This document shows, piece after piece, positions 45,319 through 64,000 of a stretch of DNA of 64,000 bases. How positions within the stretch are numbered: the first letter of the stretch is position 1; every line of letters begins with the position of its first letter. The notes beneath the pieces are model-generated. The model was not told the DNA's origin, made no database searches, and saw nothing but the letters and a program-made list of their open reading frames with translations. The position numbers and the translations under genes are program-made. The stretch lies in NCBI GenBank assembly GCA_022843465.1, contig JALHNO010000002.1:1-64000 (forward strand), written 5' to 3'. This DNA is from Pseudomonadota bacterium (lineage in GTDB: Bacteria; Pseudomonadota; Gammaproteobacteria; Xanthomonadales; Ahniellaceae).

Positions 45319-45683
45319 GGAATGCCTTTGCATTGCACAGCTCCTGATACCGAATTGATACTGACTAGAGCGCGCGAGGAATATCAATATTTTCTAGTCT
45401 CTGCAGCACGCGCCATGGTTTTTCGCAAGTATTTGAATCCTGGTTTCTCGGTAAACGGGTCCTTGACACCCATCGGCGTGCAGCGTAGATTTTTGGCTCC
45501 CGGGGATGGGATTGTCGCGAGCGTCAAGATCTGCGCATTTGCGTCAGCGAGCAGTTGATCAGACGAATTCTGTTGGCGAGTGGTTGCTTCACTTCAGTGC
45601 TTTCAGGTTCGAGCAACAGATCGCGTGATCGTGCGGCGACATTGAGTAACCTGAAATGTTTCATTCCACCTAGGGAGTCAAAA
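45319..45683. other. 365-bp AT-richer intergenic region, probable promoter region
   Basis: This stretch is visibly richer in A and T than its surroundings (for example GGAATATCAATATTTTCTAG near 45381), which suits regulatory DNA for the heme-motif protein gene that follows. I could not assign a well-spaced -35/-10 pair with confidence. The frame of the next gene is open back to 45555, but its Shine-Dalgarno is at about 45672. Confidence 0.4.
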
Positions 45684-47453
45684 ATGAAAAACCCAGTGCA
45701 AGCCCCGGTGCGGCATGGCCGCTCGGCGAGTATCCTGTTGCTCGCAGCTTCATGTTTCACGGCGCTGTCGCTGCAGGCGCAGACGCTTCCAAGCGACGCC
45801 AGTCCGACCTGTACGGTTTCGCCGAGCAACTTTGCCGGCTGGTTCGCGTCCGGCAAGGTCACTGCCAATGGTGGCGTGAATCCGGCCAACAGCATCAATT
45901 TTGTTGGCAATTCGAACTGCGCCTTTTTTCTTTGGTCCGAACAGATGTTTCTTTGGGTAACGTCGCCCGCGCCGGCGACGTACGGCGGTGGCAAGTTTGT
46001 CTTCGAGTCCCCGGTGTTCTTCGATGTGTCGCCGCCGGATGCCAATGGCGATCGCACACTCAGCCAAAATACCGGAAAGGATGTCCGCAATTTCTCGGTC
46101 CGCGTTGCCCAGAAGGGCCCGAATGGTCTGCCGGTCGTCTTTGACAATAACGGCCGCATGCTCGATGTCGTCCAGCCGCCGCCGGGTCCCGCGAGCCAGT
46201 TGCTGCTGCAACTGCCGGATGGCAGCCAGATTGCGCCCGCGCAGGTCAAGGTTGATCCGGCCGGCACGGTGCAATTCACCGACAAGAACGGTCAGCCGGT
46301 GGACGCCGCCACGGCACGCAGCGCCAAGCCGTTCGCGTTGCATTCCTCAGGCCGCTCGGTTGAGATCAAGAATATTGTTCAGGGTCGCAACGGGCATGTG
46401 CTGTTCCTCAACGCCCAGGGCCAGGTGGTCGATGTCGAGCAGGGCCAGGCCGGTGGCAACGGCGTGCTGCTGTCGCAGGGGAACTCGCTGGTGTACTACT
46501 CGACCCAGGTCAACGACGTTTTCGCGTATTTCATGACCGGGGCGAAGGACAACAAGCTCTCGCCGGCACCGACCACGTTTCCGACCACACAGGCAGCGCT
46601 GAACCAGATCACGGCGTTCGCGCAAGGGGCCCCCGCGCCATATACCAAACAGAGCTTTCCGGATGCCAATGCACTTGCCATCGAGCTGAAGTCGGCCTGG
46701 GTGGAAGCGTCCACCCTTCCCAACAATGCCGCCGGCTACATCACGCTGACCGCGACCATTCCGACCTATACCAAGACCAGCACAGCGACCTGGACTTCGA
46801 GTGGCTCAAGGCAGGCACTGCTGGCCATGGTGGGCATGCATGTGGTGGGCAGCGCGGCCGGTCATCCGGAGATGATCTGGGCCTCGTTCGAGCGCTTCGG
46901 CAACTCGCCCAATGCCACCTACAGCTACAACTCGACCTCGGGTCCGAAGACGGTGGCGCAGAACACCTCGGGTGCATGGCTGTTCAGCAAGACAAATTCC
47001 GCTGGGCCGTTCAATATCGAGTACATGAACTGGTCCGCAGCCACCACCGGGGTCGCCGCCACCATTCAGGCAGCGGCCGCCGGCTCGCCGCCGCCGCCGC
47101 CCGGCACCATCAGCGCGAGCGATACCCTGCGCGAAAATCCCTTCGGTACACCGGGTTCCGGCTCTGGTTCCAGCATCGCGTTGAATACCGATGTGATCTC
47201 GATCAACAACAGCGTGATCAGCCAGTTGCTGTCGGGCGATCTGCGCAAGAGCTACTACATGATCGGTTCGACCTGGACCAATGGCGGCAATCCGGCCGAT
47301 CCCGGTGTCCCGCAGCTCGGCACCAATCTGCTCGCCAATACCACGATGGAGACCTACCATCAGGCCGACAACTGCTTCAGCTGCCACCAGCAGTCGGGTA
47401 GCATGCTGAGCGGACTGAGCCACATCTACAGCGCGCTTGAGCCCCTGTTCTGA
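45684..47453 (+). CDS. exported protein with a C-terminal heme c motif
   Basis: A 589-aa protein with a signal peptide (SILLLAASCFTALSLQAQ). A single CxxCH heme-attachment motif (NCFSCHQQSG) is about 25 residues from the C-terminus. The body includes a segment with WSEQMFLWVTSPAPATYGGG, two short beta-rich repeats (LPDGSQIAPAQVKVDPAG), and a Pro/Gly-rich linker near residue 472. I do not recognise a named family for the main domain. Export and heme attachment suggest a periplasmic redox or sensing role. Start is set by GGGAG upstream of MKNPVQ. Confidence 0.75.
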   Translation: MKNPVQAPVRHGRSASILLLAASCFTALSLQAQTLPSDASPTCTVSPSNFAGWFASGKVTANGGVNPANSINFVGNSNCAFFLWSEQMFLWVTSPAPATYGGGKFVFESPVFFDVSPPDANGDRTLSQNTGKDVRNFSVRVAQKGPNGLPVVFDNNGRMLDVVQPPPGPASQLLLQLPDGSQIAPAQVKVDPAGTVQFTDKNGQPVDAATARSAKPFALHSSGRSVEIKNIVQGRNGHVLFLNAQGQVVDVEQGQAGGNGVLLSQGNSLVYYSTQVNDVFAYFMTGAKDNKLSPAPTTFPTTQAALNQITAFAQGAPAPYTKQSFPDANALAIELKSAWVEASTLPNNAAGYITLTATIPTYTKTSTATWTSSGSRQALLAMVGMHVVGSAAGHPEMIWASFERFGNSPNATYSYNSTSGPKTVAQNTSGAWLFSKTNSAGPFNIEYMNWSAATTGVAATIQAAAAGSPPPPPGTISASDTLRENPFGTPGSGSGSSIALNTDVISINNSVISQLLSGDLRKSYYMIGSTWTNGGNPADPGVPQLGTNLLANTTMETYHQADNCFSCHQQSGSMLSGLSHIYSALEPLF

Positions 47454-48403: not shown

Positions 48404-48420
48404 AGCAACCGGCTGAGCGT

Positions 48421-48485
48421 GATCCCGGGCTTGACCTTGATCCTGATCGCGATCCCGATCCCGATCTTGATCTTGATCTTGAAGA
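48421..48485. repeat. degenerate TTGATC-type hexamer tract
   Basis: A run of imperfect hexamers (TTGATC, CTGATC, CGATCC, TTGATC) begins 18 bp after the PRTase-fold gene and ends at a family palindrome (AGCGGGGCTTTCCCC, 48484-48499). The same hexamer-plus-palindrome arrangement recurs near 48.9, 58.6 and 61.5 kb. Confidence 0.75.
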
Positions 48486-48594
48486 GCGGGGCTTTCCCCA
48501 TAGGCGTTAGCCTAATTTTCCTGGCAAATGATTGCCCTGTCCAACGCGCAGCTGTCTATCATCTGGCATTGGTTTGCCCTCGCCCCGAAGGGGC

Positions 48595-48834
48595 ACATCA
48601 ATTCAGCCCAGGGCAACGCCCTGGGAAGGCGGGCAGATCATCCCGAAGCCCTGAAAGGGCGATTCAGTTCCCTGCAACCAAGGTACACCGTTCTTCTTGC
48701 TGAATACCAGATGCACATATAAACGCGCCAGCGATTGAGGCATCGATTTGACTCGCCCTTTCAGGGCTTTTCGGGTGACGCGCGACCATACCCAGGGCGT
48801 TGCCCTGGGCTGAATTGATGTGCCCCTTCGGGGC
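48595..48834. mobile_element. 240-bp insertion with perfect 44-bp inverted repeats
   Basis: Relative to the empty copy near 39.74 kb, 240 bp have been added after the palindrome GCCCCGAAGGGGC. The inverted repeats 48582-48625 and 48791-48834 are exact reverse complements over 44 bp. A second inverted pair (48646-48662 and 48753-48769, built on GCCCTGAAAGGGC) is nested inside, around a transposase stub. This is the arrangement expected of a REP/RAYT-derived or IS200-like non-autonomous element. Confidence 0.85.
48669..48743 (-). pseudogene. N-terminal remnant of an IS200/IS605-type (Y1) transposase
   Basis: The minus strand encodes MPQSLARLYVHLVFSKKNG followed by VPWLQG, which closely resembles the first 25 residues of Y1-family (HUH) transposases. 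The similarity stops there and the sequence runs into the nested inverted repeat. The HUH pair and catalytic Tyr, which lie further on in full-length proteins, are absent. It cannot be active. Confidence 0.75.
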
Positions 48835-48930
48835 GTAAGTCCTGGTGTGCCGTGCCAAAATTCAGGAACCAGCCAAATAGGTTGACGCCTATGGGCCTTG
48901 CCCCGCTGCGGTTGATCTTGACCTTGATCC

Positions 48931-48998
48931 TGATGTTGATGTTGATGTTGATGTTGATGTTGATGTTGATGTTGATGTTGATGTTGATGTTGATGTTG
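48931..48998. repeat. tandem hexamer repeat (TGATGT)11
   Basis: Eleven perfect copies of TGATGT run from 48931 to 48996, preceded by degenerate hexamers (TTGATC TTGACC TTGATCC). The tract is bordered by family palindromes at about 48896 (CCTTGCCCCGCTGCGG) and 49021 (GCAGCGGGGCAAGCCCCG); the latter touches the stop codon of the VanX-like gene. The tract would be prone to length change by slippage. Confidence 0.95.
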
Positions 48999-49039: not shown

Positions 49040-49861
49040 TTACAGAATCTCCGCGATGCGCGGGGGTTCCTCGATATAGCCGTACCAGGCCGCGACCGGC
49101 GCCGAGGCGCCAAGATGACGACGCATTTGCACGTAGAGCTGGTTACCCAGATCGTAATGCCAGAAAACCCAGGGTGAGTTGACCCAGTCTTCCGATTCCA
49201 GAGCCCAATGCGCCAGCCGTCGGTGCCAGAGTCGCGGGTCGTCGGCTGCGATATTCCCGAGCGCCAGCTGCCGCTCAAAATAGTCATTGTGGGATGTTTC
49301 GGACATCTCTTCGAAATTCGAGCCCATATCGACCTGTTCGCGGGTGGCGAGCGAGCGCAGGGTGATGTCCACCGCCGCACCGGTCGAATGCGCCGGCCAG
49401 GCATCAGAGTTGTGCGGGCTGAAGCGTGCGGTGTTGCGAACGAATTGATTGGCATAGGCATGGCAGGCGTCGTCTGTCGGCATATCCAGCGACGCCCGGC
49501 CCTGCTCGAAATAGAAATCGTACAGCGCCTGCTGACATTCGACCGAACGATAACCGTCCAGCACCAGCAACTCGTAGCCATAGGGGCGCAGCCGTTCGTT
49601 CACGCGCGCCAGGCTTGTTGCCGCGCCCGCGCGCAGCCAGGTGTCGCGGCGGCTGCCGCGCAATGGCCGGTGATAGGGCGGGTTGCCGCCATCGCTGCGG
49701 GCGTGATACGAGTCGTAGGCCACATTCACGGTGTCGAGCAACACCAGTGGCTCCTGTGAGCGCGGATCGGTCGGATCATGCGGAACGCTGCCATACGCCT
49801 TCCCGTAGCGGGCCGGATCGATGATCGGAATGCGATGGGACAGTTCCTGCAGGGCGATCAT
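49040..49861 (-). CDS. VanX-like (M15) dipeptidase family protein with altered active site
   Basis: A 273-aa protein of the D-Ala-D-Ala dipeptidase type. The zinc motif is visible as AHSTGAAVDITL (H158, D165) with the third ligand H235 in WVFWHYDLGN, and VLDGYRSVECQQALYDFY is also typical. In VanX the catalytic Glu sits three residues before the last His; here that position is Val232. It may therefore be inactive, use another base, or belong to a different subgroup. No signal peptide, so cytoplasmic, as for VanX. It diverges from the hydrogenase-like operon, and its stop codon lies within a repeat. Confidence 0.8.
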   Translation of the reverse strand: MIALQELSHRIPIIDPARYGKAYGSVPHDPTDPRSQEPLVLLDTVNVAYDSYHARSDGGNPPYHRPLRGSRRDTWLRAGAATSLARVNERLRPYGYELLVLDGYRSVECQQALYDFYFEQGRASLDMPTDDACHAYANQFVRNTARFSPHNSDAWPAHSTGAAVDITLRSLATREQVDMGSNFEEMSETSHNDYFERQLALGNIAADDPRLWHRRLAHWALESEDWVNSPWVFWHYDLGNQLYVQMRRHLGASAPVAAWYGYIEEPPRIAEIL

Positions 49862-50191: not shown

Positions 50192-52006
50192 ATGAGCGCC
50201 CAATCAGTTTTGCGCCCGCAATCTGCGGTAGACCCGGATGCTGGCGCCGGCTTGCTGGCGCTGATCGCCCAGCGCAATCAGTCGCTCGACACCGGGCCTG
50301 CCGCTGGCCTGACCCGAGTGGGTGGTCGCCTGGAAATCCACTGCACGATCGATGAAGCCGTCGGTCGCGTCAGCGGTGTGGCGTCGGTAGCCACGGCGTT
50401 TCGCGGCTATGAGGCCTTGCTGGTCAAGCGCGGATTGCGCGACGCTGGTCTGGTCAGTTCCACTGCCTCGGGCATCTGCGGTGGAGTGCATGCCACGGCA
50501 TCCAGCCAGTGCCTGGAAATGGCGCTGGGACTGCGGCCGCCACCGCTCGGCATCGTGACCCGAAACCTTCTGCTCAGCTGCCAGTATCTGGACGAGAATC
50601 CGATCCAGCTGTTCGTGTTCTCCGGTCCCGACTACTCGCGGGAGACCCTGCAACGCAGCAACCCGGCCCTGTGGCAGCGTGCCGAACGCAGTGCCGCCGC
50701 GCGACAGTCGATACACGGCTACAACCGTGTTGGCGCGATCATGGCCGATCTCGACAAGGGCAGCGGCAAGCTCTACCTTGAGGCGATGACCATGGTGCGC
50801 ACCGCACGTGAGGCCTATGCCGCGATTGGCGGAAAATATCCGCATTCCGAGTCGATCGTGCCGGGCGGGGTCACCCTCAAGCCGAGCGAGGATCAGCTCG
50901 ACCAGTTCCTTGCGAAACTGCGTCCGTTCTGCGATTACGCCAAGCGCTGCGTCGCCATCTGGGACGACATCTTCGATTTTCTGTACGAGGCCAATCCCGC
51001 CTATGCCAAGGTCGGCGAGGCGCCGGCCACCATGGTGGACTTCGGTCAGTGGGACCACGACGAAGCCTATGATGCGACCTATGCACATTGCGACAACTGG
51101 GGCCTGATGCGTTGGTCCACGCCGGGCGCTATCGTTGACGGCAAACTGGTCACGACCCGATTGACCGAGCTCAATTGCGGTCTGGAGGAATTCGTCGACC
51201 GTTCCTATTACGAGCGCGGATCGGATGCGGTCCGTTTCAGCAGCGATCCGCTCGGCAATGCACTGAGCCCGCACCATCCCTGGAATCGCGATTTCTCCGC
51301 CAATGCGGACAAGCCCGGCACGCCAGAGCCCTATTCCTGGGCGTCCACGATGACCTGGCGCCAACGTGTTTTTGAGGTGGGTGCCTATGCACGCATCTAT
51401 CTTTCCGCTCTGGGTGGCTGCCTGCCCAAGAGCGCGCATTTTCATTCCACGGGGCGCAGTCTGCAGATGCATCTGCCGGCAGATCAGCTGCCGGCAATGG
51501 ATATCGAGTGGCGGCCGCCAGCCGTCTGGAACGCCTTCGAGCGCAATCGTGCGCGCGCCTATGCGGTGGCTTTCAATCTGATGGTGCTCAAGGAAAACGC
51601 CGAGCGCGCCCGCCGTCTGTTGCGCGCCGGCGCATCCACCCTGGTCGAGTCCTTCGAGATTCCGAGCAGCGGTCAGACCATGGGCGCCGGATTCTGCGGC
51701 GCAGGCCGCGGCTTTCTGGCGCACTGGGCGGTGGTCCGCGATGGCGCGTTCGCCAACTATCAGATTGCCGTGCCCTCACGCATCAATGCCGGGCCGCGGT
51801 CGCCCTGGGGCGAGTTGGGCGCGGTCGAGCGCGCGGTGATGAACACCCCGATCCTGGAAACCCGTAACGACCCAGGCGACCCGCTCAGCGGCATCGATAT
51901 CGTCCGCGCCATTCAGAGTTTCGATCCCTGCATGCCCTGCGCCGCATATCTGCACACGCAGGACGGGCAGTCGTTCGAGCGCACCATTGCGACCACGGGT
52001 CCCTGA
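50192..52006 (+). CDS. [NiFe]-hydrogenase large subunit-like protein with degenerate metal site
   Basis: A 604-aa homologue of hydrogenase large subunits, with conserved stretches FRGYEALLVKRGLRDA, GVHATASSQCLEMAL, LFVFSGPDYSRETL, IHGYNRVG and GRGFLAHWAVV. Key positions differ from active enzymes. The N-terminal RxEGH box reads RVGGR (Gly44 for the proton-relay Glu), and the first Cys of CxxC is Ser93 (S93-G-I-C96, then H100). The C-terminal DPCxxCxxH is DPCMPCAAY (C580, C583 kept; Tyr586 for the processing His), with an 18-residue tail. Arg506, equivalent to the active-site Arg of E. coli Hyd-1, is kept. It starts with a strong ribosome-binding site (AGGGGGAGAC). It heads a tight operon with hypF, hypC, SIS, hypD and hypE. 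No small-subunit gene is nearby. Confidence 0.88.
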   Translation: MSAQSVLRPQSAVDPDAGAGLLALIAQRNQSLDTGPAAGLTRVGGRLEIHCTIDEAVGRVSGVASVATAFRGYEALLVKRGLRDAGLVSSTASGICGGVHATASSQCLEMALGLRPPPLGIVTRNLLLSCQYLDENPIQLFVFSGPDYSRETLQRSNPALWQRAERSAAARQSIHGYNRVGAIMADLDKGSGKLYLEAMTMVRTAREAYAAIGGKYPHSESIVPGGVTLKPSEDQLDQFLAKLRPFCDYAKRCVAIWDDIFDFLYEANPAYAKVGEAPATMVDFGQWDHDEAYDATYAHCDNWGLMRWSTPGAIVDGKLVTTRLTELNCGLEEFVDRSYYERGSDAVRFSSDPLGNALSPHHPWNRDFSANADKPGTPEPYSWASTMTWRQRVFEVGAYARIYLSALGGCLPKSAHFHSTGRSLQMHLPADQLPAMDIEWRPPAVWNAFERNRARAYAVAFNLMVLKENAERARRLLRAGASTLVESFEIPSSGQTMGAGFCGAGRGFLAHWAVVRDGAFANYQIAVPSRINAGPRSPWGELGAVERAVMNTPILETRNDPGDPLSGIDIVRAIQSFDPCMPCAAYLHTQDGQSFERTIATTGP

Positions 52007-52009
52007 ACC

Positions 52010-54499
52010 ATGTCTGCGGTCCTGTCCCCGGCTGCGGCGAGTGCTTCGGAGATTCGCATCTCCGGTACGGTGCAGGGCGTCGGCTTTCGGCCGACGGTGT
52101 GGCGACTGGCACGCGAGGAGGGGCTGCTCGGCGAAGTGCTCAATGATGGTCAAGGCGTGCTGATCCGCACGGTGGGCAGCGCCGAAGCGATCACGCGGCT
52201 GATGCAACGCATCCGCACAGAAGCGCCCGTACTCGCGCGTATCGAATCGATGCAGCAATCGCCTCTGGGCCGGGTGCCTGCGTATAACGAATTTCGAATC
52301 GTTGAAAGCGTTGCCGGCGAAAATCAGACGCGCATCGCAGCCGACGCCGCCATCTGTGCCGAGTGTCGCGATGAGGTGCTCAGCCACTCCGATCGCAGGC
52401 AGGGCTATGCCTTCACCAATTGCACGCACTGCGGCCCGCGTTTTTCGATCGTGCACAGCGTGCCCTACGACCGCGCACGTACCACGATGGCGCGTTTTCC
52501 GATGTGTCCGCTGTGCGCGGCCGAGTTTGGCAATCCGGCGGACCGTCGTTTTCATGCCCAGCCCATTGCCTGCGCAGACTGCGGACCCAGGCTCTGGATC
52601 GAGACCGCCGCAAGCGCCGACCTGGCTGCCGAGGCCGAAACTGTGGGCGACGCCGCGCCAGATTGCATCGCCTTGGCCGCGGCGGCGATCCGCGACGGCC
52701 GCATTCTGGCCCTGCGCGGACTCGGTGGCTTCCATCTTGCCTGCGATGCCGGCAATGCCGAAGCTGTCGCGCGGCTGCGTGAACGCAAGCGCCGCTATGC
52801 CAAACCGTTCGCCCTGATGGCGCGTGACATCGCCATGGTCGAACGCTACTGCAGCGTTTCTGCTGCGGCCGCTGAACATCTGTGCAGTCCGGAGGCAGCC
52901 ATTGTCGTGTTGCAAGCCGACGGTGCTGAGCAGCTGCCCGAGGCGATTGCGCCCGACCTCGATCTGCTCGGCTTCATGCTGCCCTACACGCCCTTGCATG
53001 TGTTGCTGATGCAGGCGCTCGATCGCCCGGTCGTGATGACCAGCGCCAACCTGTCTTCCGAGCCGCAGGTGATTGCCAATCAGGAAGCACGCGACAAGCT
53101 TGGCGGTATCGCTGACCTTTTCTTGATGCACGATCGCGAGATCGCCAACCGCATTGATGATTCCGTCCTGCGTTTTGCCGGTGGCCGCGCGCGTCTGCTG
53201 CGGCGCGCCCGTGGCTACGCGCCGGCGGCGCTCAGGCTTCCTGCGGGATTTGAGCAGGCGCCGGAGATTCTGGCTTGCGGCGCCGAGCTGAAATCAACGT
53301 TTTGCCTGGTCAAGAACGGCGCCGCCGTGCTGTCCCAGCACCAGGGCGATCTCGAAGATCTTGCCACCTTCGAGGACTATCAGAAAAATCTCGATCTCTA
53401 CGCACGGACCTATGATCATCGGCCGCGTCTGCTCGCGGTGGATCTGCATCCCGAGTACCTGTCCACCAAGCTGGCGCTGGAGATGGCGGAGCGCGAAGGA
53501 TTGCCGGTCGAACGCATCCAGCATCACCACGCGCACCTGGCCAGTTGCATGGCCGAGAACGGCGTGGCGCTGGCCACCAGGCCGGTGCTGGGTCTTGTGC
53601 TCGATGGCCTCGGCATGGGTGAGGACGGCAGTTTCTGGGGTGGCGAACTGCTGCTCGGAGATTATCGCAGTGCGCGCCGGCTTGCCGCCTTGACTGCGTT
53701 GCCGATGCTGGGTGGCATGCGCGCCATCATCGAGCCCTGGCGCAGCACCTACGCGCATCTGCTGGCTGCCATGCCATGGCCTGAATTCGTCGAACAATTT
53801 GGCATGCTGGACTTGCATCGTCGGCTGCAGCAGAAGCCCCTGGATGCCATGAACCGCATGCTGGCGGCGCAGCTGAATTGCCCACTGGCATCATCCTGTG
53901 GCCGGCTGTTTGATGCGGTTGCCGCTGCGATCGGTCTGTGCTTCGATCAGGTGGCCTACGAAGGGCAGGGCGCGATGGCGCTCGAGTCTGCGGCAGCGCG
54001 TTGTCCCGGTCTTCACAAATCCGATCCGTATGACTATGTGTTTGGCATCGTCGCTGCCACCGATACCGACATCGCCCGCCTCGATGCCGGCCCGATGTGG
54101 CGCGCCCTGTTGCGTGATCTGTCCCAGGGGATTTCACAGTCGATCATGGCGGCGCGCTTCCATCGTGGATTGGCGCAGAGCCTGGTGGCCCTGGTCGCGC
54201 ATGCGCTGCGCGACCAGCGCAACTTCGCCAACGGCAACGGTCCGGCGGCGGGCGCCGACTCGGCCTCCCGGCCGGAGGCGATAGCGCTATCCGGTGGTTG
54301 TCTGCAGAACAGCATCCTGCTGGAGGCCCTGCTTGCTGGTCTCGGCAGCCTCGGGTTCAAGGTTCTGTCGCATGAAAAGGTGCCCGCCAATGATGGCGGT
54401 ATTGCACTCGGTCAGGCCGCGATCAGCGCGGCACGTCAGCTGTCGGCCCCGGGCCGACCTTCCTTCGCCCAACCAGAACGGAGCGCACCATGTGCCTAG
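52010..54499 (+). CDS. hypF: carbamoyltransferase HypF
   Basis: An 829-aa protein that converts carbamoyl phosphate to thiocarboxamide on HypE, the source of the CN ligands of the Fe(CN)2CO group. It has an acylphosphatase domain (SGTVQGVGFRPTVWRLA, about 18-34) and two C4 zinc fingers (CAECRDEV/CTHCGPRFS and CPLCAAEF/CADCGPR, about 110-200). A YrdC-like domain follows (residues 205-390, with KRRYAKPFALMARD), then a Kae1-like C-terminal domain with the metal His motif (IQHHHAHLASCMAENG) and ALSGGCLQNS. It begins 3 bp after the large-subunit stop and overlaps hypC by 10 bp. Confidence 0.96.
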   Translation: MSAVLSPAAASASEIRISGTVQGVGFRPTVWRLAREEGLLGEVLNDGQGVLIRTVGSAEAITRLMQRIRTEAPVLARIESMQQSPLGRVPAYNEFRIVESVAGENQTRIAADAAICAECRDEVLSHSDRRQGYAFTNCTHCGPRFSIVHSVPYDRARTTMARFPMCPLCAAEFGNPADRRFHAQPIACADCGPRLWIETAASADLAAEAETVGDAAPDCIALAAAAIRDGRILALRGLGGFHLACDAGNAEAVARLRERKRRYAKPFALMARDIAMVERYCSVSAAAAEHLCSPEAAIVVLQADGAEQLPEAIAPDLDLLGFMLPYTPLHVLLMQALDRPVVMTSANLSSEPQVIANQEARDKLGGIADLFLMHDREIANRIDDSVLRFAGGRARLLRRARGYAPAALRLPAGFEQAPEILACGAELKSTFCLVKNGAAVLSQHQGDLEDLATFEDYQKNLDLYARTYDHRPRLLAVDLHPEYLSTKLALEMAEREGLPVERIQHHHAHLASCMAENGVALATRPVLGLVLDGLGMGEDGSFWGGELLLGDYRSARRLAALTALPMLGGMRAIIEPWRSTYAHLLAAMPWPEFVEQFGMLDLHRRLQQKPLDAMNRMLAAQLNCPLASSCGRLFDAVAAAIGLCFDQVAYEGQGAMALESAAARCPGLHKSDPYDYVFGIVAATDTDIARLDAGPMWRALLRDLSQGISQSIMAARFHRGLAQSLVALVAHALRDQRNFANGNGPAAGADSASRPEAIALSGGCLQNSILLEALLAGLGSLGFKVLSHEKVPANDGGIALGQAAISAARQLSAPGRPSFAQPERSAPCA

Positions 54500-54798
54500 G
54501 TATTCCAGGTCAAGTTGTCGAGATCACCGACCGAGCGCGCAATCTCGGGCGTGCCAGCGTGGCCGGTGTATTCCGGGAAATCAGTCTGGCCTGCATCGTC
54601 AGCGATGAGCATCCGCTCGATGCCTGCATTGGCGACTGGGTGCTGATCCATGTCGGATTCGCGATGAGCCGCATCAACGAGGCCGAGGCCGAGGCGACGC
54701 TGAAGGTGCTGACCGAACTGGGTGAGCTTGATGAAGAACTTGCCGCCATGAACGCGGCCGATCAGGCGACGCAGAAAGGCCTGGTTGAAAATGTCTGA
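54490..54798 (+). CDS. hypC: hydrogenase maturation chaperone HypC
   Basis: A 102-aa protein with the diagnostic start MCLGIPGQVVEI; Cys2 binds the Fe(CN)2CO intermediate in HypCD. GDWVLIHVGFAMSRINEAEA is also characteristic. The C-terminal helix is somewhat longer than in E. coli HypC. It overlaps hypF (10 bp) and the SIS gene (8 bp), so translation is coupled. Confidence 0.95.
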   Translation: MCLGIPGQVVEITDRARNLGRASVAGVFREISLACIVSDEHPLDACIGDWVLIHVGFAMSRINEAEAEATLKVLTELGELDEELAAMNAADQATQKGLVENV

Positions 54799-55537
54799 CG
54801 GCCAGAACACAGAGGCGCTCAGCAGGCTCTATCCCTTCCTGCACGCCCGCAAGCAGGATCCGGCGCTGATGAATCAGGCGCTGCTCGAATCGGTGCGGCA
54901 GAAGGTCGCCTCGCATCAGGAGGTGATCGCGCAGTTCTGTGCCCAGCACGCACAGGCGATCGTGTCTGCAGCGGGCGCGATTGCCCAGGTCTATCGCGGT
55001 GGCGGGCGGCTCTACACCATGGGCAATGGCGGATCGAGCTGCGATGCGGCGCATGTGGCAGTGGAATTTCTGCATCCGGTCACCGCCGGTCGTCCTGCCC
55101 TGACGGCGGTGGATCTGACTGCCGATCGCACCATGCTGACGGCGGTCGCCAATGATGTCGGTTATGCCAATGTCTTTGTCCGCCAGATCATCGCCCAGGG
55201 CAGAGCCGGCGACGGACTGATCGGATTGTCCACCAGTGGCGGTTCGGAAAATCTGCTCAAGGCCTTTCGCAAGGCCAGGGAGATGGGGCTGGTCACCATC
55301 GGGATTACTGGAATGACCGGTGGCGAGATGGCGACCATGGGACTTGATCACTGCCTGGTGGTCAGTTCCTCAAGCATTCACCGCATCCAGGAATGTCACG
55401 TTCTGATCTATCACATGCTCTGGGATCTGGTGCATACCCTGCTCGCCGACGACCGCGGCAATCTGTCGCCGAACAAGGGTGAGGCACCGCTTGCCGCAGA
55501 GTCGGAACTCAATCTCAAGCAGAAGGAAATCCCATGA
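54791..55537 (+). CDS. SIS domain protein, GmhA-like phosphosugar isomerase
   Basis: A 248-aa protein with a single SIS domain: GGGRLYTMGNGGSSCDAAHVAVEF (phosphosugar-binding loop), GLSTSGGSENLLKAF and VVSSSSIHRIQECHVLIYH. It resembles sedoheptulose-7-phosphate isomerases. It lies inside the hyp operon, overlapping hypC by 8 bp and hypD by 4 bp, so it is part of the system rather than of LPS heptose synthesis. Its role with Hyp proteins is unknown to me. A TTG two codons upstream is an alternative start. Confidence 0.88.
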   Translation: MSDGQNTEALSRLYPFLHARKQDPALMNQALLESVRQKVASHQEVIAQFCAQHAQAIVSAAGAIAQVYRGGGRLYTMGNGGSSCDAAHVAVEFLHPVTAGRPALTAVDLTADRTMLTAVANDVGYANVFVRQIIAQGRAGDGLIGLSTSGGSENLLKAFRKAREMGLVTIGITGMTGGEMATMGLDHCLVVSSSSIHRIQECHVLIYHMLWDLVHTLLADDRGNLSPNKGEAPLAAESELNLKQKEIP

Positions 55538-56694
55538 AGTTCGTTGATGAGTTTCGCGATCCGGCCAAGGCGCAATCCCTGCTTGTCGAGATCCGGCAGA
55601 TGGTCGAGCGCATCCGTCCAAAGATGAATCGTCCGCTCTACATCATGGAAGTCTGTGGCGGGCATACCCATGCCATCTTCCGCTATGGCATCGAGACCAT
55701 GCTGCCCGACGAGATCGAACTGGTGCACGGGCCCGGCTGTCCGGTCTGCGTGCTGCCGATGGGACGCATCGATGATTGCATCGCGATCGCCGAGCGGCCG
55801 AATGTCATCATGACCACGTTCGGCGACGCCATGCGCGTACCTGGCTCCAAGAAGAGCCTGCTCACCGCCAAGGCCGAGGGCGCCGATGTCCGCATGGTCT
55901 ATTCGCCGCTGGATGCCCTGCAACTGGCCAAGGCCAATCCTGACAAGGAGGTCGTGTTTTTCGGTCTCGGTTTTGAAACCACCATGCCGAGCACCGCCTT
56001 GACCGTGCTGCGTGCCGAGGCCGAAGGCATCCGCAACTTCTCGCTGTTCTGCAATCACATCACGATTATCCCCACCGTCAAGGCGATTCTGGATTCGCCC
56101 GATTTCCAGATCGATGGATTCCTCGGGCCGGGTCACGTCAGCATGGTGATCGGCAACGAGCCGTACCAGTTCATCGCCCAGCATTACAACCGGCCGATCG
56201 TGGTGTCCGGCTTCGAACCGCTGGATGTCCTGCATGGCATCTGGATGGTGCTCAAGCAGATCGACGAAGGCCGCTCCGAGGTGGAGAACCAGTACCGCCG
56301 CATCGTGCCCGAGGGTGGCAACGCGGTGGCGCTCGACGCGATCGGCAAGGTCTTCGAATTGCGCGAGTTCTTTGAATGGCGCGGCCTGGGTTCGATCGAT
56401 CACTCCGGCGTGCGCGTTCGCGAAGCCTATGCGGCATTTGACGCCGAGAAAAAATTCACCATGCCGGCGGTGATGATTGCCGATCCCAAGGCCTGCCAGT
56501 GCGGCGAGGTGCTCAAGGGCATCATCAAACCCTGGGCCTGCCGGGTCTATGGCAAGGGCTGCACACCAGAAACACCGATGGGCGCCTTGATGGTCTCATC
56601 CGAGGGTGCCTGTGCCGCCTATTTCCGCTTTGGTGACATCGAGAAAATTCGCAGCCGTCGGGTCGAGGCAGGTATTGAGGAGGCCAGCGCATGA
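55534..56694 (+). CDS. hypD: hydrogenase maturation protein HypD
   Basis: A 386-aa scaffold on which Fe(CN)2CO is assembled with HypC and HypE. Conserved motifs are visible: MEVCGGHTHAIFRYG, HGPGCPVCVLPMG, FGLGFETTMPSTA, GFLGPGHVSMVIG, and the 4Fe-4S cysteines near the C-terminus (ADPKACQCGEVLKG, AC-RVYGKGCTPETP, SSEGACAAYFRF). ATG overlaps the SIS gene by 4 bp, and its stop overlaps hypE by 4 bp. Length is typical. Confidence 0.97.
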   Translation: MKFVDEFRDPAKAQSLLVEIRQMVERIRPKMNRPLYIMEVCGGHTHAIFRYGIETMLPDEIELVHGPGCPVCVLPMGRIDDCIAIAERPNVIMTTFGDAMRVPGSKKSLLTAKAEGADVRMVYSPLDALQLAKANPDKEVVFFGLGFETTMPSTALTVLRAEAEGIRNFSLFCNHITIIPTVKAILDSPDFQIDGFLGPGHVSMVIGNEPYQFIAQHYNRPIVVSGFEPLDVLHGIWMVLKQIDEGRSEVENQYRRIVPEGGNAVALDAIGKVFELREFFEWRGLGSIDHSGVRVREAYAAFDAEKKFTMPAVMIADPKACQCGEVLKGIIKPWACRVYGKGCTPETPMGALMVSSEGACAAYFRFGDIEKIRSRRVEAGIEEASA

Positions 56695-57767
56695 GTGTTG
56701 TCGATCCGGATGTCCGTACTGAAAAGCCGGTGCGTGCGCGCCTGAGCGCCGCCAATGTCACCCTCGCGCACGGCGGCGGCGGCAAGGCCATGCACGATCT
56801 GATCGATAGCGTATTCATCGACAGCTTTGACAACGCCCTGCTCGAGACCATGGAGGATCAGGCGCGGATGAGTCTGTCCGCGCTGATGCGTCACGGTGAT
56901 CGGCTTGCCTTCACCACGGATTCCTATGTGGTCAGCCCGCTCGAGTTTCCGGGTGGCGATATCGGCAAGCTCGCCGTCTGTGGCACGATCAATGATCTCG
57001 CCGTCGGCGGCGCCACGCCCCTGTATCTGAGCTGCGCCGTGATCATCGAAGAAGGGCTCGATGTCGAACTGCTGCGGCGGATGGTGCGCTCGATGGCCGA
57101 CACCGCGAAGGCGGCAGGGGTTGCCATTGTCACCGGCGATACCAAGGTAGTCGGGCGCGGCGCCTGTGACCGCCTGTTCATCAATACCACCGGCATCGGC
57201 GTCATTCGCGAGGGGCTCAATCTGAGTGTGTCGTCCGCCCGGAGCGGGGACGCCATCCTGGTCAATGGCATGCTCGGCGATCATGGCGCCACCATCCTCA
57301 ATGCGCGCGGCGATATGGCCCTGACCACGCCGATCGCCAGCGACTGCGCGGCCCTGCATGGCCTGATCGAAGACCTGTTGCGCGCTGCACCGGGTACCCG
57401 GTTCATCCGTGACGCCACCCGCGGCGGATTGGCCACCGTGCTCAACGAGATCGCCGTTGCCTCCAAGGTCGGCATCGATATCGAAGAGGCACAGACGCCG
57501 CTGCGCGAAGAGGTCAAGGGATTCTGCGAAATCCTCGGACTCGATCCGCTCTATCTGGCCAATGAGGGCAAGATCGTCTGCGTCGTGCCGCCGGGCGAAG
57601 AGCAGACGGCACTGAAGGCAATGCGCGCGCATCCGCTGGGCTCGGAATCGGCCCTGATTGGCCGCATCACGGATGGCCGCGCCGGCCGGGTATCGATGCA
57701 GACGGTCTTTGGCGGGCGCCGCATTGTCGACATGCTGATCGGCGAACAGCTGCCGCGCATCTGTTGA
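56691..57767 (+). CDS. hypE: hydrogenase maturation protein HypE
   Basis: A 358-aa AIR synthase-like ATPase that dehydrates the thiocarboxamide to a thiocyanate on its own C-terminal Cys. Visible are TLAHGGGGKAMHDLID, FTTDSYVVSPLEFPGGDIG, VTGDTKVVGRG and the obligatory C-terminus PRIC. The intact terminal Cys and a complete HypCDEF set argue that cyanide-ligand synthesis is functional here. It overlaps hypD by 4 bp. Confidence 0.97.
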   Translation: MSVVDPDVRTEKPVRARLSAANVTLAHGGGGKAMHDLIDSVFIDSFDNALLETMEDQARMSLSALMRHGDRLAFTTDSYVVSPLEFPGGDIGKLAVCGTINDLAVGGATPLYLSCAVIIEEGLDVELLRRMVRSMADTAKAAGVAIVTGDTKVVGRGACDRLFINTTGIGVIREGLNLSVSSARSGDAILVNGMLGDHGATILNARGDMALTTPIASDCAALHGLIEDLLRAAPGTRFIRDATRGGLATVLNEIAVASKVGIDIEEAQTPLREEVKGFCEILGLDPLYLANEGKIVCVVPPGEEQTALKAMRAHPLGSESALIGRITDGRAGRVSMQTVFGGRRIVDMLIGEQLPRIC

Positions 57768-58776: not shown

Positions 58777-59709
58777 ATGCGCGTGCGCAAACTCGACTGC
58801 GTACTGGTCTATCACTGGCAGGCCTGGGAGGACTTCTATATCTCCCACCTGGTCGATCCGGCTTGCCAGGTTCCGGCGCGCTACAGCGATGACTTCAAAA
58901 GTATCGCCCGCCACCTGAGCCCCAATATTCGTGCTGTGCTGTTCCAGATCAATCTCTCGCGCGCCGATCTTTTTCCCGAGCGGCGCAAGCGGCTGACCAC
59001 CATGCTGCAGCGACGTGGGCTGCTTGTGCTCAACAGCGAAGTCCAGGACATCACCAAGAACAATCTCCATCGCCTGCTGAAACGTGCCGGCATCGACTCA
59101 CTCAAGGCAAGTCGTCGCGGTCCGGCCGAGGAGCTGGTCTTTCTGAAGACCAATCTGAATTTTGGCGGCATGAACGAACAGCGCCTGCCGGAATCCCTGC
59201 GCCGGATCTTCCTGCCCGCTCCGGCCTGTCCGATAAAGCGTTGGGATGAGTACTACGTCGTCCTGCGTCGCAATGTGCCACCGGCCCTGTGGTCTGACTC
59301 CAGCGTCGTGATCGAGCGCTACATCGGCAATGCCGCCGACAGCTTCTATCGCGTCTATGGCTTTGGCGACGCCATCGTCGTGGTGGAAGGGCGGGCGCCG
59401 CAGTTGATCAAGAAGCTGCTTGGCCGCCGTGATGAGCCGCATTGGCTGCTGACGCGCCGTCAGTTGCTGAGTCAGACAACGCAACTGCCGCGAGACTTGC
59501 AGCGCGTGTTGAAGCGCTTTGTCGCGCACTATCCGTTGGCCTATTTCTGCCTCGATCTGGTCCATGATGGGCAGAGGCACTACATCATCGATCTGAATCT
59601 GACGCCGTACTCCGACCCCAGGCGCCAGACGGCCGAGATCAGGGAGTTCCTCATTCGTGGTGCCGAGCGGTTCGTCCGCCGCGCTGCTCGCCACTTGGTC
59701 CGCTCCTGA
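58777..59709 (+). CDS. ATP-grasp-like protein
   Basis: A 310-aa soluble protein. Features in the order expected of ATP-grasp ligases are LVFLKTNLNFGGMNEQ (nucleotide-binding Lys and Gly-rich loop, about 125-140), VVIERYIGNAADSFYRVYGF (about 182-200), and YFCLDLVHDGQRHYIIDLNL TPYSD (metal-binding acid and Asn, about 270-290). The N-terminal 100 residues form the substrate part and resemble no family I can name. The stop overlaps the next glycosyltransferase by 1 bp. It may ligate an amino acid or modify a sugar in the same pathway as the two glycosyltransferases; that is inference. Confidence 0.75.
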   Translation: MRVRKLDCVLVYHWQAWEDFYISHLVDPACQVPARYSDDFKSIARHLSPNIRAVLFQINLSRADLFPERRKRLTTMLQRRGLLVLNSEVQDITKNNLHRLLKRAGIDSLKASRRGPAEELVFLKTNLNFGGMNEQRLPESLRRIFLPAPACPIKRWDEYYVVLRRNVPPALWSDSSVVIERYIGNAADSFYRVYGFGDAIVVVEGRAPQLIKKLLGRRDEPHWLLTRRQLLSQTTQLPRDLQRVLKRFVAHYPLAYFCLDLVHDGQRHYIIDLNLTPYSDPRRQTAEIREFLIRGAERFVRRAARHLVRS

Positions 59710-60488
59710 TGCGCACCCTGTCGGTACTGATTGCGGCCTATCGCGCGCCGGCCTGGATCTCCGGCTGCCTGGGCGCGGTATTTGCCCAGCAACTGCCCGC
59801 CGGTTGGCGCCTGCAGGTGCTGCTCGGCATTGACGGTTGCGAAGCTACATTGATTGCTGCGCGCTCCTTGCGCCACGAGACGCTTGAAGTCGTGTACGTG
59901 CCGCGCAACCAGGGCACCTACCTGATGTTCAATGCCCTGATGCTGTATGCCCGCGGTGACCTGATCTGCCGCTTCGATGCCGACGATCTGATGTGCCCGG
60001 GTTTTCTATCGACGCAGATCGCCGCCATCGAGGCCGGTGCCGACATGACCCTGACCTGGAGCATCTATACCGACGCCGACCTGAATCGGATCCCGGTGTA
60101 CTCGAAGCGCAATGGCCTTGAGGATGCCGATGGTCATTGCCGGATCGGTTGGGAAGGGCAGTTCGTGATGCGCAGAGAGGTATGGAAGCGCCTGCGCGCG
60201 TTTCGACCCTGGCGCACCAGCGCCGACACGGATTTTTCCAACCGGGTCCGCGCCGCTGGCTTCAGACAGCTGGTGATCGAGCAGTTTCTGTATCTGCGCC
60301 GCAAGCACGCCGACGCGCTTACCGTGCACCCGGACAGCAATTTCCAGTCTCCGATGCGGCGGGAAGTCGAGCGGTGCAATGCCGAGCTGCTGCTGCAGTA
60401 TCAGGCCGGCACCGGCGATCTCGGCATCGAACCGGAGTACGCGCAGGGGCATCGCCTGCTGTGGTCGGGTCAGGACTTCGCAGCGTGA
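59709..60488 (+). CDS. family 2 glycosyltransferase
   Basis: A 259-aa GT-A protein with LSVLIAAYRAPAWISGCLG at the N-terminus, the nucleotide-sugar/metal motif CRFDADDLMCPGFL (DxD, about residue 91), and acceptor-side WRTSADTDFSNRVRAAGF. No transmembrane helix, so it would act at the inner face of the membrane on a lipid-linked or soluble acceptor. It overlaps both neighbours by 1 bp (TGATG), so the trio is translated together. Confidence 0.88.
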   Translation: MRTLSVLIAAYRAPAWISGCLGAVFAQQLPAGWRLQVLLGIDGCEATLIAARSLRHETLEVVYVPRNQGTYLMFNALMLYARGDLICRFDADDLMCPGFLSTQIAAIEAGADMTLTWSIYTDADLNRIPVYSKRNGLEDADGHCRIGWEGQFVMRREVWKRLRAFRPWRTSADTDFSNRVRAAGFRQLVIEQFLYLRRKHADALTVHPDSNFQSPMRREVERCNAELLLQYQAGTGDLGIEPEYAQGHRLLWSGQDFAA

Positions 60489-61324
60489 TGAAGTACTCGG
60501 TGATCATTCCTGCATTCAATCGACGCGAGCTGCTGGTCTCGGCCATCGACAGTGTCCTCAGTCAGCACCATGCCGATATCGAGATCATCGTGGTCGATGA
60601 CGGTTCCGGCGATGGCACCAGTGGGATGCTCAGGCAACGTTTTCCGATGGTGCGCGCCCTGCATCAGACCAACCAGGGTCCAGCGGCGGCGCGCAATCGT
60701 GGCATCGCAGTCGCGAAGGGTAGCTTCATCGCATTTCTGGATTCCGACGATGTCTGGCTCGAGCGCAAGATCGAGCGAGAACTCGCGCTCTTCGAGCGTT
60801 TTCCTGAGGCCGACCTGCTCGCAGGCAATGCCAGCTCCTTCATCGAAGGCGCGCTGCGTTCGGCCGACACCTTTGCGCAACGGAAGATTCCGTTTGTGGG
60901 CGCGACTCCGCGCTACTTCGACTGGTCATTGCCGATCATGAAGCTGGGCCCGACCTGCTGCATCAGCGCCATGGTGTTCCGTGCCGAGACCTTGCGTTCA
61001 TTCGGCCCGCAGCCGTTCGACGAGCGCCTGCGTCTGGATGAGGACTGGGACCTGGAGTTTCGCCTGTTCGCCCGATTCAAGGCGCTGCTCTATCCCGAGG
61101 TCGTGTGCCACCGTCACGTGTTCCACGACGGCACCCGCCAGCACTACAGCCCCAGCGGTCAGATCAGGAGCGCCGCCGAACAGCAGCGGATCTGGCGACA
61201 GCAGCGCGAGATCATTGCGCGCTATCTCGATGTTTTACCCTGGGATGCCGACACCAGGGCAGGATTCCTGCAACGCCATCGTGAGCTTGAATCCCTATTG
61301 CAAGGCCACGAGCACGAAGCCTGA
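60488..61324 (+). CDS. family 2 glycosyltransferase
   Basis: A 278-aa GT-A protein with the classical N-terminus YSVIIPAFNRRELLVSAIDS, VVDDGSGDGTS, FLDSDDVWLERK (DxD region) and the catalytic-base motif LDEDWDLEFRLF. It is clearly related in fold to the preceding glycosyltransferase but not a recent duplicate. The start codon overlaps the stop of that gene. The product is probably an exported oligosaccharide or glycolipid; no polymerase or flippase is in the window. The longer in-frame extension back to 60137 lies inside the upstream gene. Confidence 0.92.
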   Translation: MKYSVIIPAFNRRELLVSAIDSVLSQHHADIEIIVVDDGSGDGTSGMLRQRFPMVRALHQTNQGPAAARNRGIAVAKGSFIAFLDSDDVWLERKIERELALFERFPEADLLAGNASSFIEGALRSADTFAQRKIPFVGATPRYFDWSLPIMKLGPTCCISAMVFRAETLRSFGPQPFDERLRLDEDWDLEFRLFARFKALLYPEVVCHRHVFHDGTRQHYSPSGQIRSAAEQQRIWRQQREIIARYLDVLPWDADTRAGFLQRHRELESLLQGHEHEA

Positions 61325-61427: not shown

Positions 61428-61805
61428 GGAGCGGGGCTTGCCCACAGATCCTGGCTTTGATCCTGATGTTGACCTTGATGTTGAGGTTGATGCTGACGTT
61501 GATGTTGTAGAGCGCGGCTTGCCGCGCTGCGTTTGATTTTTTCTCGCATTGATGAAGATCAATAGCTTCAGGAGCGAAGGTAAAGAGCGGCGCGGCAAGC
61601 CACGCTCTATGCAATCCCCCAGGTGACAAGAGCATGAATCAAGCGCAGCGGGGCAAGCCCGCGCTCTACAACATCAACGTCAACATCAACGTCAAGAGCA
61701 GCGGGGCAAGCCCGCGCTCTACAACGTCAACATCAACGTCAAGAGCAGCGGGGCAAGCCCGCGCTCTACAACATCAACGTCGACGCCAACTTCGACTTCG
61801 ACTTC
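61428..61805. repeat. cluster of palindrome/hexamer repeats with three tandem units
   Basis: Family palindromes occur near 61431, 61510 and 61590. Three direct units then start at 61645, 61698 and 61745, each GCAGCGGGGCAAGCCCGCGC followed by TCTACAAC and AACRTC hexamers. The periods are 53 and 47 bp, differing by exactly one hexamer. The array ends in a TTCGAC hexamer tract (about 61789-61806) close to the multicopper oxidase stop. No gene in 61325-61829. Confidence 0.88.
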
Positions 61806-61829: not shown

Positions 61830-63800
61830 TCAATGATGCCCTTGCGCCGCCGCGCCGCCCTTGCCGTCCGGCAAGACGACTTCGACGTTTTGCATCATGC
61901 CCTGGTCTTCGTGATCCAGGATGTGGCAATGCAGGACGAACTCGCCGATGTAGCGCTGGTAGCGGGTGTAGATGTCTATCACCACGTCGGACTGCACGAA
62001 GATCGTGTCCTTCCAGGTATTGAGCATGCCCGCGTATTGGCCATCGGTGATTTCCGGTCCGGTCGGTTGTCCGTCCGCGCCCTTTCTGCGCACGCTCTTG
62101 ATCTGGAACGGATTGACGTGGATATGGAAGGGGTGCGAGCCCCCCGAAGAAGTCAGCCGCCAGGCCTGTGCCTTGTGCAGGATCAGGGTCTGGTCCATGC
62201 GGTCGGGCTTGAAGGGTTTGCCATTGACCATGAAGTCCGAGCCGACGATATTGAAGTCGATGCTGATGTCTTTTAGCCCGGAGCGATCGATTTCTGCCCT
62301 GTCGATGCTCCTGTGCGGTACAAAGCGCGTGAGCTGCATATTGCCGATATCGCGAACGATCTGGTCGCGGACATCGGCGGGAAAGGTCCGTGCCGACGCG
62401 GTCAATTCGGCCTGCATGAAGGCCTTCTGATCGGTCACCCGACGTCCGCCGGTGGCCTCGATGATTGCCAGCACCTTGGGGTTTTCGGCTGATGCCGAGA
62501 TCGAACCCGTGGCCGTGGCTCCATCATCGAACACGCAGTAAGCGCCCGCTTCCGGCAGGCTGAACAGTACGTCGCTGCGGTATCCGGATTGCAGATACAG
62601 GGTGTTCTTAGGATAGATGTCGGCACGCGTCAGGCCATCTGCGGCGACTTCAAACAGGCTGACATCGGTACCGGTGCAGGCCTTGGCCACTTCATCGGCG
62701 CGCTCTTCGGGGCTGCCGGCCGTGGCCTTCAACAGGGAGGCATCACCGATCTTGCGGATCCGCAGGGCGATGCTCTCGCGCACGCCCGCATGCACAAAGC
62801 GCCAGCGATACAGACGGCCCGCCATCATCGGCAAGGTCGGACGGACGTGACCATTGATCGAGGTATAGCGGCCCGATGCCTTCCAGACGCCAGGGGTCAT
62901 CTGCTTCTTGAAGTCCTCGATCTTGCCGACCTGTCCGTCCTTGCAGATCCAGCGTTGGGTGACCGGGTCCACCTCGATATTGCCGGCCGCGTCAAAGCAG
63001 GCATAGGGAATCTGCTGGATCAGCATTTCCTCGCTGTAGTCATTTGTCGATCGCGGCGCAAACGGCTTGAGCAGAACATCCAGATCACCATTGCTGCCAT
63101 TGCCCTTGGGCAGTCGATCACCGCGGATGATCAGCATGCCGGCCATGCCGCTGCCGACCTGCATGGAGGTGGAACCATGACGATGCGGGTGATACCAGAA
63201 GGTGCCTGCGGGGTGGTCGTCCGGCACGTTGTACTCGTACTCGAAATTCACGCCCGGATACAGCGACAGCAAAACGTTGTCGCTATTGCCGGTGGGTGAG
63301 ACCCAGAGACCATGCGAGTGCAGGTTGGTGGTATTGAAGCAATGCGGCTCATTGACGCCGCGGCCGACATTGCAGTCGGGCTCGGCCGGCAACTGATTCT
63401 GCAGTCCAATACGCACGGTCTGGCCCGGTTCCATATCGATCGTCGGTGCCACGAACTCGTCCCCGTAGGAACGCAGATTCACGGCATCGAACTTTCCCGT
63501 GGCCGGATTGAAAATCCTGCCCTGGGTGTATTTGATCGGCAGGATGAAATGCTGTTGCCGGCCCTCGCGGATGGCTTCACTTTCCGCGCCCGGTGACAGC
63601 AGATTGGTGCCGGCCCGAAACGATTCGGCCATGGCGCCAGCGCGCTTCGCCTGCGCAGGTTCTGCCGATTGTGCCGGCAAGCGTGGCGGCGGACGAAACA
63701 CTGGTGCCTGCTCGGCCTGTTGAGCAAGGCTCACGCCGCCGTGCAAGGCCATCATCGCGAACAAACAGAATCGAATTTCCCAGCGCGCATGCTTTTGCAT
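61830..63800 (-). CDS. exported multicopper oxidase
   Basis: A 656-aa protein with a signal peptide (WEIRFCLFAMMALHGGVSLA). Copper-site motifs are in order: LHSHGLWVS and WYHPHRHGSTSM (N-terminal domain), then HPFHIHVNPF and HCHILDHEDQGMM (C-terminal type 1 and trinuclear sites). It should oxidise phenolic or metal substrates and reduce O2 to water in the periplasm; it could serve in copper tolerance, but no other copper genes are visible. Start MQKHARWE has GGGAAG upstream; the frame is open to 63881. Confidence 0.92.
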   Translation of the reverse strand: MQKHARWEIRFCLFAMMALHGGVSLAQQAEQAPVFRPPPRLPAQSAEPAQAKRAGAMAESFRAGTNLLSPGAESEAIREGRQQHFILPIKYTQGRIFNPATGKFDAVNLRSYGDEFVAPTIDMEPGQTVRIGLQNQLPAEPDCNVGRGVNEPHCFNTTNLHSHGLWVSPTGNSDNVLLSLYPGVNFEYEYNVPDDHPAGTFWYHPHRHGSTSMQVGSGMAGMLIIRGDRLPKGNGSNGDLDVLLKPFAPRSTNDYSEEMLIQQIPYACFDAAGNIEVDPVTQRWICKDGQVGKIEDFKKQMTPGVWKASGRYTSINGHVRPTLPMMAGRLYRWRFVHAGVRESIALRIRKIGDASLLKATAGSPEERADEVAKACTGTDVSLFEVAADGLTRADIYPKNTLYLQSGYRSDVLFSLPEAGAYCVFDDGATATGSISASAENPKVLAIIEATGGRRVTDQKAFMQAELTASARTFPADVRDQIVRDIGNMQLTRFVPHRSIDRAEIDRSGLKDISIDFNIVGSDFMVNGKPFKPDRMDQTLILHKAQAWRLTSSGGSHPFHIHVNPFQIKSVRRKGADGQPTGPEITDGQYAGMLNTWKDTIFVQSDVVIDIYTRYQRYIGEFVLHCHILDHEDQGMMQNVEVVLPDGKGGAAAQGHH

Positions 63801-64000
63801 TGGACTTCCCGTGGATGCTTGTTGACAGTAAATGTCCGGCTCCCAGCGCACAACACAGCGGCGCTGGCCCCCACCAGACAAGCCCGGCCACTATCCGCGC
63901 ACCGACTTGCACAATCAATAGACCGACCCCTGTCGAATCTTCCAGCTGTTCGACCTTGCCATTGAAATCCGATACTCGCAGGGGAAAATCGCAGCATTCT
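63801..64000. other. 200 bp upstream of the multicopper oxidase, no gene recognised
   Basis: This should contain the promoter of the minus-strand multicopper oxidase gene. Open frames here on both strands lack start signals and family character. Confidence 0.4.

Follow-up and report, generated by a model that had tools for sequence, protein, structure and literature searches.

Gene content of the locus

The window, a stretch of 64,000 nucleotides from an Ahniellaceae bacterium of the Xanthomonadales, carries on its forward strand (50192-52006) a gene for a homologue of the hydrogenase large subunit in which SxxC replaces the N-terminal CxxC (here called HLS), as identified from profile, structure-relative and tree evidence. 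The open reading frame encodes 604 amino acids, and its ATG is preceded by a purine-rich stretch. The protein matches the Pfam family NiFeSe_Hases (PF00374) with an E-value of 5e-55, and its closest solved relative is HofG (5aa5_C) from the actinobacterial-type (group 1h) hydrogenase of C. necator (E 6e-101, residues 40-585). As expected of a group 1 [NiFe]-hydrogenase, homology to the large-subunit fold spans the full length of HLS. Identity with the complex I subunit NuoD is ruled out by this full-length hydrogenase similarity, together with a separate, weak NuoD-like match at C2:111173. An AlphaFold model of HLS (mean pLDDT 52.5) was too poor for inspection of the pocket and was not used.

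The hyp genes lie directly behind HLS. Starting 3 bases past the HLS stop (52006 to 52010), hypF (52010-54499, forward strand) encodes a carbamoyltransferase (TIGR00143, 741 bits) in which the four CxxC motifs and HHHAH are intact. It is followed on the same strand by hypC (54490-54798), encoding the chaperone with an intact MCLGIPG N terminus (Cys2), a gene for a SIS/GmhA-like protein (54785-55537) that is also found within the group 1h hyp operon of C. necator, hypD (55534-56694), with Cys41 (CGGHT), GPGCPVC and the C-terminal Cys cluster intact, and hypE (56691-57767), with an intact C-terminal PRIC. From hypF to hypE, successive genes overlap. HypD, HypE and HypF pass the TIGR equivalog cut-offs and HypC passes a subfamily cut-off. 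The known catalytic and metal-binding residues of these four proteins, including the 4Fe-4S cysteines of HypD and the zinc fingers of HypF, are intact both in the window and in every complete relative that was examined, i.e., the features expected for Fe(CN)2CO assembly are in place. To our knowledge, the only established role of HypCDEF is to make the iron half of [NiFe]-hydrogenases.

Upstream of HLS are genes for a secreted-looking protein with a single CxxCH motif at its end (45555-47453, forward strand), which in other clusters lies upstream of hypF, and for a homologue of ComF-like phosphoribosyltransferases (PRTase, PF15610; 47528-48403, forward strand), which co-occurs one-to-one with HLS in the order. 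On the reverse strand, 49040-49861 encodes a VanX/DdpX-like M15 protein. Its zinc ligands (His/Asp/His) are kept in all seven aligned sequences, and the catalytic Glu of EWWH, the other hallmark of a VanX/DdpX dipeptidase, is missing, with Val in its place in the window and Leu in relatives. An inverted repeat with two perfectly matching 45-nt arms (48581-48625 and 48791-48835) separated by 165 nt lies between the PRTase and VanX-like genes and resembles a small mobile element or one of REP type. Related units of the TTGATG/CAACATCAACGT type form short tandem arrays on either side of the cluster (48413-48478, 48911-48998, 61464-61507 and 61639-61781).

Downstream of hypE, a forward-strand frame open from 57764 contains orfX, of which the conserved part begins at 57926 and ends at 58579. 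This protein is weakly FmdE-like: PF02663 matched three of six members (best E 0.009), the window's own member being unmatched. Next on the forward strand are a conserved protein of unassigned fold (58777-59709) and two family 2 glycosyltransferases (59709-60488 and 60497-61324), and on the reverse strand a multicopper oxidase (61830-63881). An ATP-grasp identity for the 58777-59709 protein (orf310) is not established, the likeness being by eye only and one of three members matching an ATP-grasp family at E 0.073. The orf310 protein, the first glycosyltransferase and the oxidase (31% identical to its counterparts) are common to the window and to the clusters of genomes G027 and G539; the second glycosyltransferase is common to the window and G027 (54% identity).

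In five genomes of family f12 the gene order is CxxCH protein, hypF, hypC, SIS, hypD, hypE, orfX, PRTase, VanX-like and HLS, part of these genes having been detected by tblastn and not by simple gene calling. Conservation of the core cluster extends beyond one family and reaches another order. Among 398 genomes of the window's order, the PRTase profile matches exactly the same seven genomes as HLS; the two samples carry matching genome handles and were therefore taken as identical. Membership of HLS in the gene set is thus strongly supported. Profile searches of the PDB with orfX and PRTase returned no matches, and a domain scan covering part of the neighbours detected neither a sensor kinase nor a receiver. 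The plasmid collection contained no SxxC member, its best matches being to 1h enzymes at about 37% identity, and no PRTase match. In public plasmid records, the protein directly upstream of the 1h large subunit is labelled 'hydrogenase expression protein HypE' (L051:14827-15882, also L060, L061 and L062); these proteins align with 1l small subunits at 47-52% identity, and the label is a misannotation.

Active-site residues and phylogeny of the SxxC clade

In [NiFe]-hydrogenases, the first N-terminal Cys of CxxC is a terminal Ni ligand. The initial annotation had named a set of altered and intact active-site residues in HLS, and all of them were found where it had placed them: R42-V-G44-G-R46, S93 (codon TCG), C96, H100, R506, C580, C583 and Y586. 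Relatives were gathered from GTDB-type genome collections, and active-site columns were compared for nine clade members, nine 1l-like proteins, four 1h proteins, one actinobacterial relative and three outgroup proteins. The clade members originate from three families of the window's order, from G539 (another part of the class) and from one Methylococcaceae MAG. The label 1l was assigned from taxa and operon layout, with no classifier behind it.

All nine clade members, the window included, have A-S-G-I-C-G-G-V-H in common, with Ser at the position of the first N-terminal Cys, and position 93 is Cys in every 1l-like, 1h, actinobacterial and outgroup protein of the set. The proposed loss of this Cys is therefore real and clade-wide, and its presence in nine of nine members rules out Ser93 as a sequencing error or isolated mutation. 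C96, H100, R506, P528-S529 and C580 are also kept throughout the clade. C583 is kept in eight members and is Thr in L007, which means that a two-Cys iron site is not universal in the clade. Three of the four Cys ligands are thus present in eight of nine members, and the four ligands in two CxxC motifs that mark group 1 [NiFe]-hydrogenases are found in no member, all nine having SxxC.

The other two alterations are present in HLS but turned out not to be signatures. At position 44, every 1l-like protein has Ala and every 1h protein Val, and the clade members themselves vary among Gly, Ala, Glu and Asp; Gly44 is for that reason uninformative on the clade. Position 586 is Tyr in three members and His in six, and positions 42 and 583 likewise vary within the clade. 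A check of the active-site columns of the nine members and their relatives revealed no co-variation of S93, G44 and Y586. In this alignment, Ser93 emerges as the only diagnostic one of the three altered positions. Of the 153 columns invariant across 1l-like and 1h proteins, 12 are altered in all nine clade members, including P82, F87, R91 and C93 in the N-terminal loop that runs up to the lost ligand. The clade also gains an invariant Cys51 and Arg530.

In the tree, the nine SxxC proteins form one clade (support 100/100) beside or within the 1l-like proteins. Some end branches are long, that of the window's own HLS (0.82) among them, so the clade can be trusted and its exact sister group cannot. 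By sequence comparison, the clade is best described as derived from group 1l/1h-like [NiFe]-hydrogenases. HLS is under purifying selection in the f12 family: pairwise dN/dS values among its genomes are 0.12-0.16, comparable to those of hypE and hypF, and the gene is therefore not decaying in this family.

The 1l-like large subunits (L004 from Hyphomicrobium, L006, L010 from HIMB30 and L052; 53-56% identity) resemble the clade in full-length homology, in C96, C580, C583, H100 and R506, in the P-S cyanide pocket and in related hypF-C-(SIS)-D-E genes, but they keep the N-terminal CxxC, with a small subunit gene upstream and a maturation protease gene downstream. The group 1h system of C. necator (HofG, PDB 5aa5) has the same order of hypF, hypC, SIS, hypD and hypE, whereas HofG, unlike HLS, has four Cys ligands, the small subunit HofK, a protease, HypA and HypB. 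A Thermoleophilaceae large subunit (L012:10040-11725) ends in DPCMPCATQ, with Gln for the processing His and no C-terminal extension; its CxxC is intact and a small subunit gene lies upstream.

Search for the missing hydrogenase parts

The window's genome is 99.99% complete and seven further clade genomes are each about 99% complete, together giving eight complete genomes. Genome-wide searches found no HypA in any of the eight, the window's included; in the window's genome alone, such searches found no HypB and no HycI-type maturation protease. That genome also has no second large subunit. HLS is the sole full-length large-subunit match in each of the eight genomes, and G188 adds a second, N-terminally truncated copy (L054:7082-8110, on G188:C13), probably a pseudogene that arose via duplication. 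For the small-subunit family Oxidored_q6, a genome-wide Pfam search gave one match in seven of the eight genomes and none in G539. The lone match in the window's genome (C2:109934) looks like NuoB, because it lies about 1 kb from the weak NuoD-like match.

In tblastn searches, for which HofK and a small subunit of 1l type served as small-subunit queries, neither a small subunit nor a protease was found in any SxxC locus, the window included, and both were present in all seven CxxC loci tested. A hidden small subunit, protease, HypA or HypB was searched for in the window's genome and none was found. In G762, the genome of the ninth member, HypA is present beside a second, ordinary hydrogenase. 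Since the four Cys ligands, a small subunit, HypA/HypB-dependent Ni insertion and endoproteolytic maturation were not found, HLS is not a [NiFe]-hydrogenase, though descended from one.

Proposed role of HLS

The H2-sensing regulatory hydrogenases of groups 2b and 2d differ from HLS in having a NiFe site, a small subunit and a sensor kinase partner, no such kinase having been seen in the HLS cluster as far as it was scanned. They resemble HLS in that C-terminal processing is not needed (PMC12134894). Normal maturation starts with the assembly of Fe(CN)2CO by HypCD and its delivery by HypC; HypAB then insert Ni, and cleavage of the tail by a protease is followed by docking of the small subunit (PMC12134894, PMC11565642). 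The protease works only after Ni insertion, and enzymes of groups 2b, 2d, 4c and 4e dispense with cleavage (PMC12134894). A Ni-free large-subunit intermediate of the C. necator membrane-bound hydrogenase (MBH) has a 5-coordinate Fe(CN)2CO that is presumably bound by two cysteines (PMC11565642). A large subunit with Fe(CN)2CO and no Ni is the state proposed here for HLS, with the difference that the MBH subunit passes through it transiently and has the full set of four cysteines, whereas HLS has lost the Ni-only Cys and the Ni-insertion genes.

The initial annotation had suggested that HLS may hold Fe(CN)2CO or an altered centre and lack ordinary H2 activity. This proposal has gained strong indirect support from sequence comparison, through the Ser93 signature of the clade, and, in the window's genome, the retention of HypC, HypD, HypE and HypF and the absence of HypA, HypB, the protease and the small subunit, but the changes at positions 44 and 586 do not carry the argument. 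The clade keeps the genes for Fe(CN)2CO assembly and delivery and has lost those for the later steps as far as searched; given the MBH precedent, we propose that HLS is fixed in the Ni-free state. Our preferred reading, held with somewhat better than even confidence, is that HLS functions with neither Ni nor a small subunit, takes up Fe(CN)2CO and acts in a dedicated pathway whose genes lie nearby; we infer its occupancy, the absence of Ni and the pathway role. The pathway is probably biosynthetic or redox, and the conserved neighbours argue for such a role over that of a sensor.

In the proposed mechanism, HypF and HypE would make cyanide on the HypE tail, and HypC-HypD would assemble Fe(CN)2CO, which HypC would hand to HLS. 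The unit would be held at the iron half-pocket by C96 and C583/C580, with R506 and P528-S529 surrounding the CN and CO ligands and H100 adjoining C96. HLS would then remain in the state that is transient in normal hydrogenases, with no Ni added, no tail cut and no Fe-S subunit docked, and its mononuclear or otherwise altered iron site would serve a pathway together with the FmdE-like protein, the PRTase, the VanX-like protein and the CxxCH protein. In E. coli HycE, C241, the equivalent of Ser93, is essential for interaction with HypC, and C244, which corresponds to the C96 kept in HLS, is regarded as the first landing site of the Fe group (PMC12134894). Because of the role of C241, Ser93 might impair delivery by HypC, and delivery to HLS would have to differ.

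Among other readings, it is conceivable, though unlikely, that HLS is a way station that takes Fe(CN)2CO from HypCD and passes the unit, or its CN/CO, to another protein or to a small molecule made by the neighbours. The missing Ni ligand and small-subunit partner would fit a site that is never catalytic, some conserved neighbours are metal-protein-like (the FmdE-like orfX, and the VanX-like protein with zinc ligands and without the catalytic Glu), and the co-occurrence of HLS and PRTase is perfect; however, no acceptor was identified, HypCD can itself donate, and an extra carrier of 600 residues would be unusual. We consider it less probable still that HLS holds a bimetallic centre, with Fe(CN)2CO next to another metal or to Ni loaded without HypAB and with Ser93 as an oxygen ligand. 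Three of four cysteines are kept in eight of nine members and high Ni can bypass HypAB in the laboratory (PMC12134894), but HypA is absent from all eight complete genomes, the bridging C583 is also lost in L007, and there is no small subunit for wiring.

It seems improbable to us that HLS is a relic, whether decaying or metal-free, or a HypC-binding regulator, kept for a structural reason. Positions 42, 44, 583 and 586 do vary in the clade, and HypC binds apo large subunits (PMC12134894); against this stand the strong purifying selection on HLS, the invariant Fe-pocket residues and the intact HypDEF, which would lack a client in the clade genomes. There is very little chance that HLS is an ordinary hydrogenase whose small subunit escaped recognition: it has the fold and descent of group 1l/1h, but no small subunit was found by genome-wide Pfam searches, nor by tblastn with HofK and the 1l small subunit in any SxxC locus, and the protease and HypAB are missing from the window's genome.

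Returning to the preferred reading of HLS as a Ni-free Fe(CN)2CO protein, the hyp genes kept in a conserved cluster suggest a so far undescribed Ni-free use of iron-cyanide-CO chemistry. In the open-access literature we found no description of a large subunit with HypCDEF but without HypAB or a small subunit, and no report of non-hydrogenase large subunits or of hyp genes in biosynthetic clusters; as only open-access papers were covered, this is weak evidence of novelty. We see about even chances that the SxxC proteins form a family that carries Fe(CN)2CO without Ni or a small subunit and is equipped with a HypCDEF set of its own; the unit would then be used in a setting other than [NiFe]-hydrogenases, within a dedicated cluster of metabolic or biosynthetic genes. 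For annotation, the clade is a caution that PF00374 and hyp genes are insufficient for assigning H2 metabolism. If a Ni-free Fe(CN)2CO were demonstrated, HLS would be categorically new, and it would offer a naturally Ni-free large subunit for studying Fe(CN)2CO delivery. A lineage that keeps HypCDEF without a hydrogenase, Ni-insertion proteins or a small subunit would then separate Fe(CN)2CO chemistry from H2, and HLS may reveal a new cofactor-dependent reaction.
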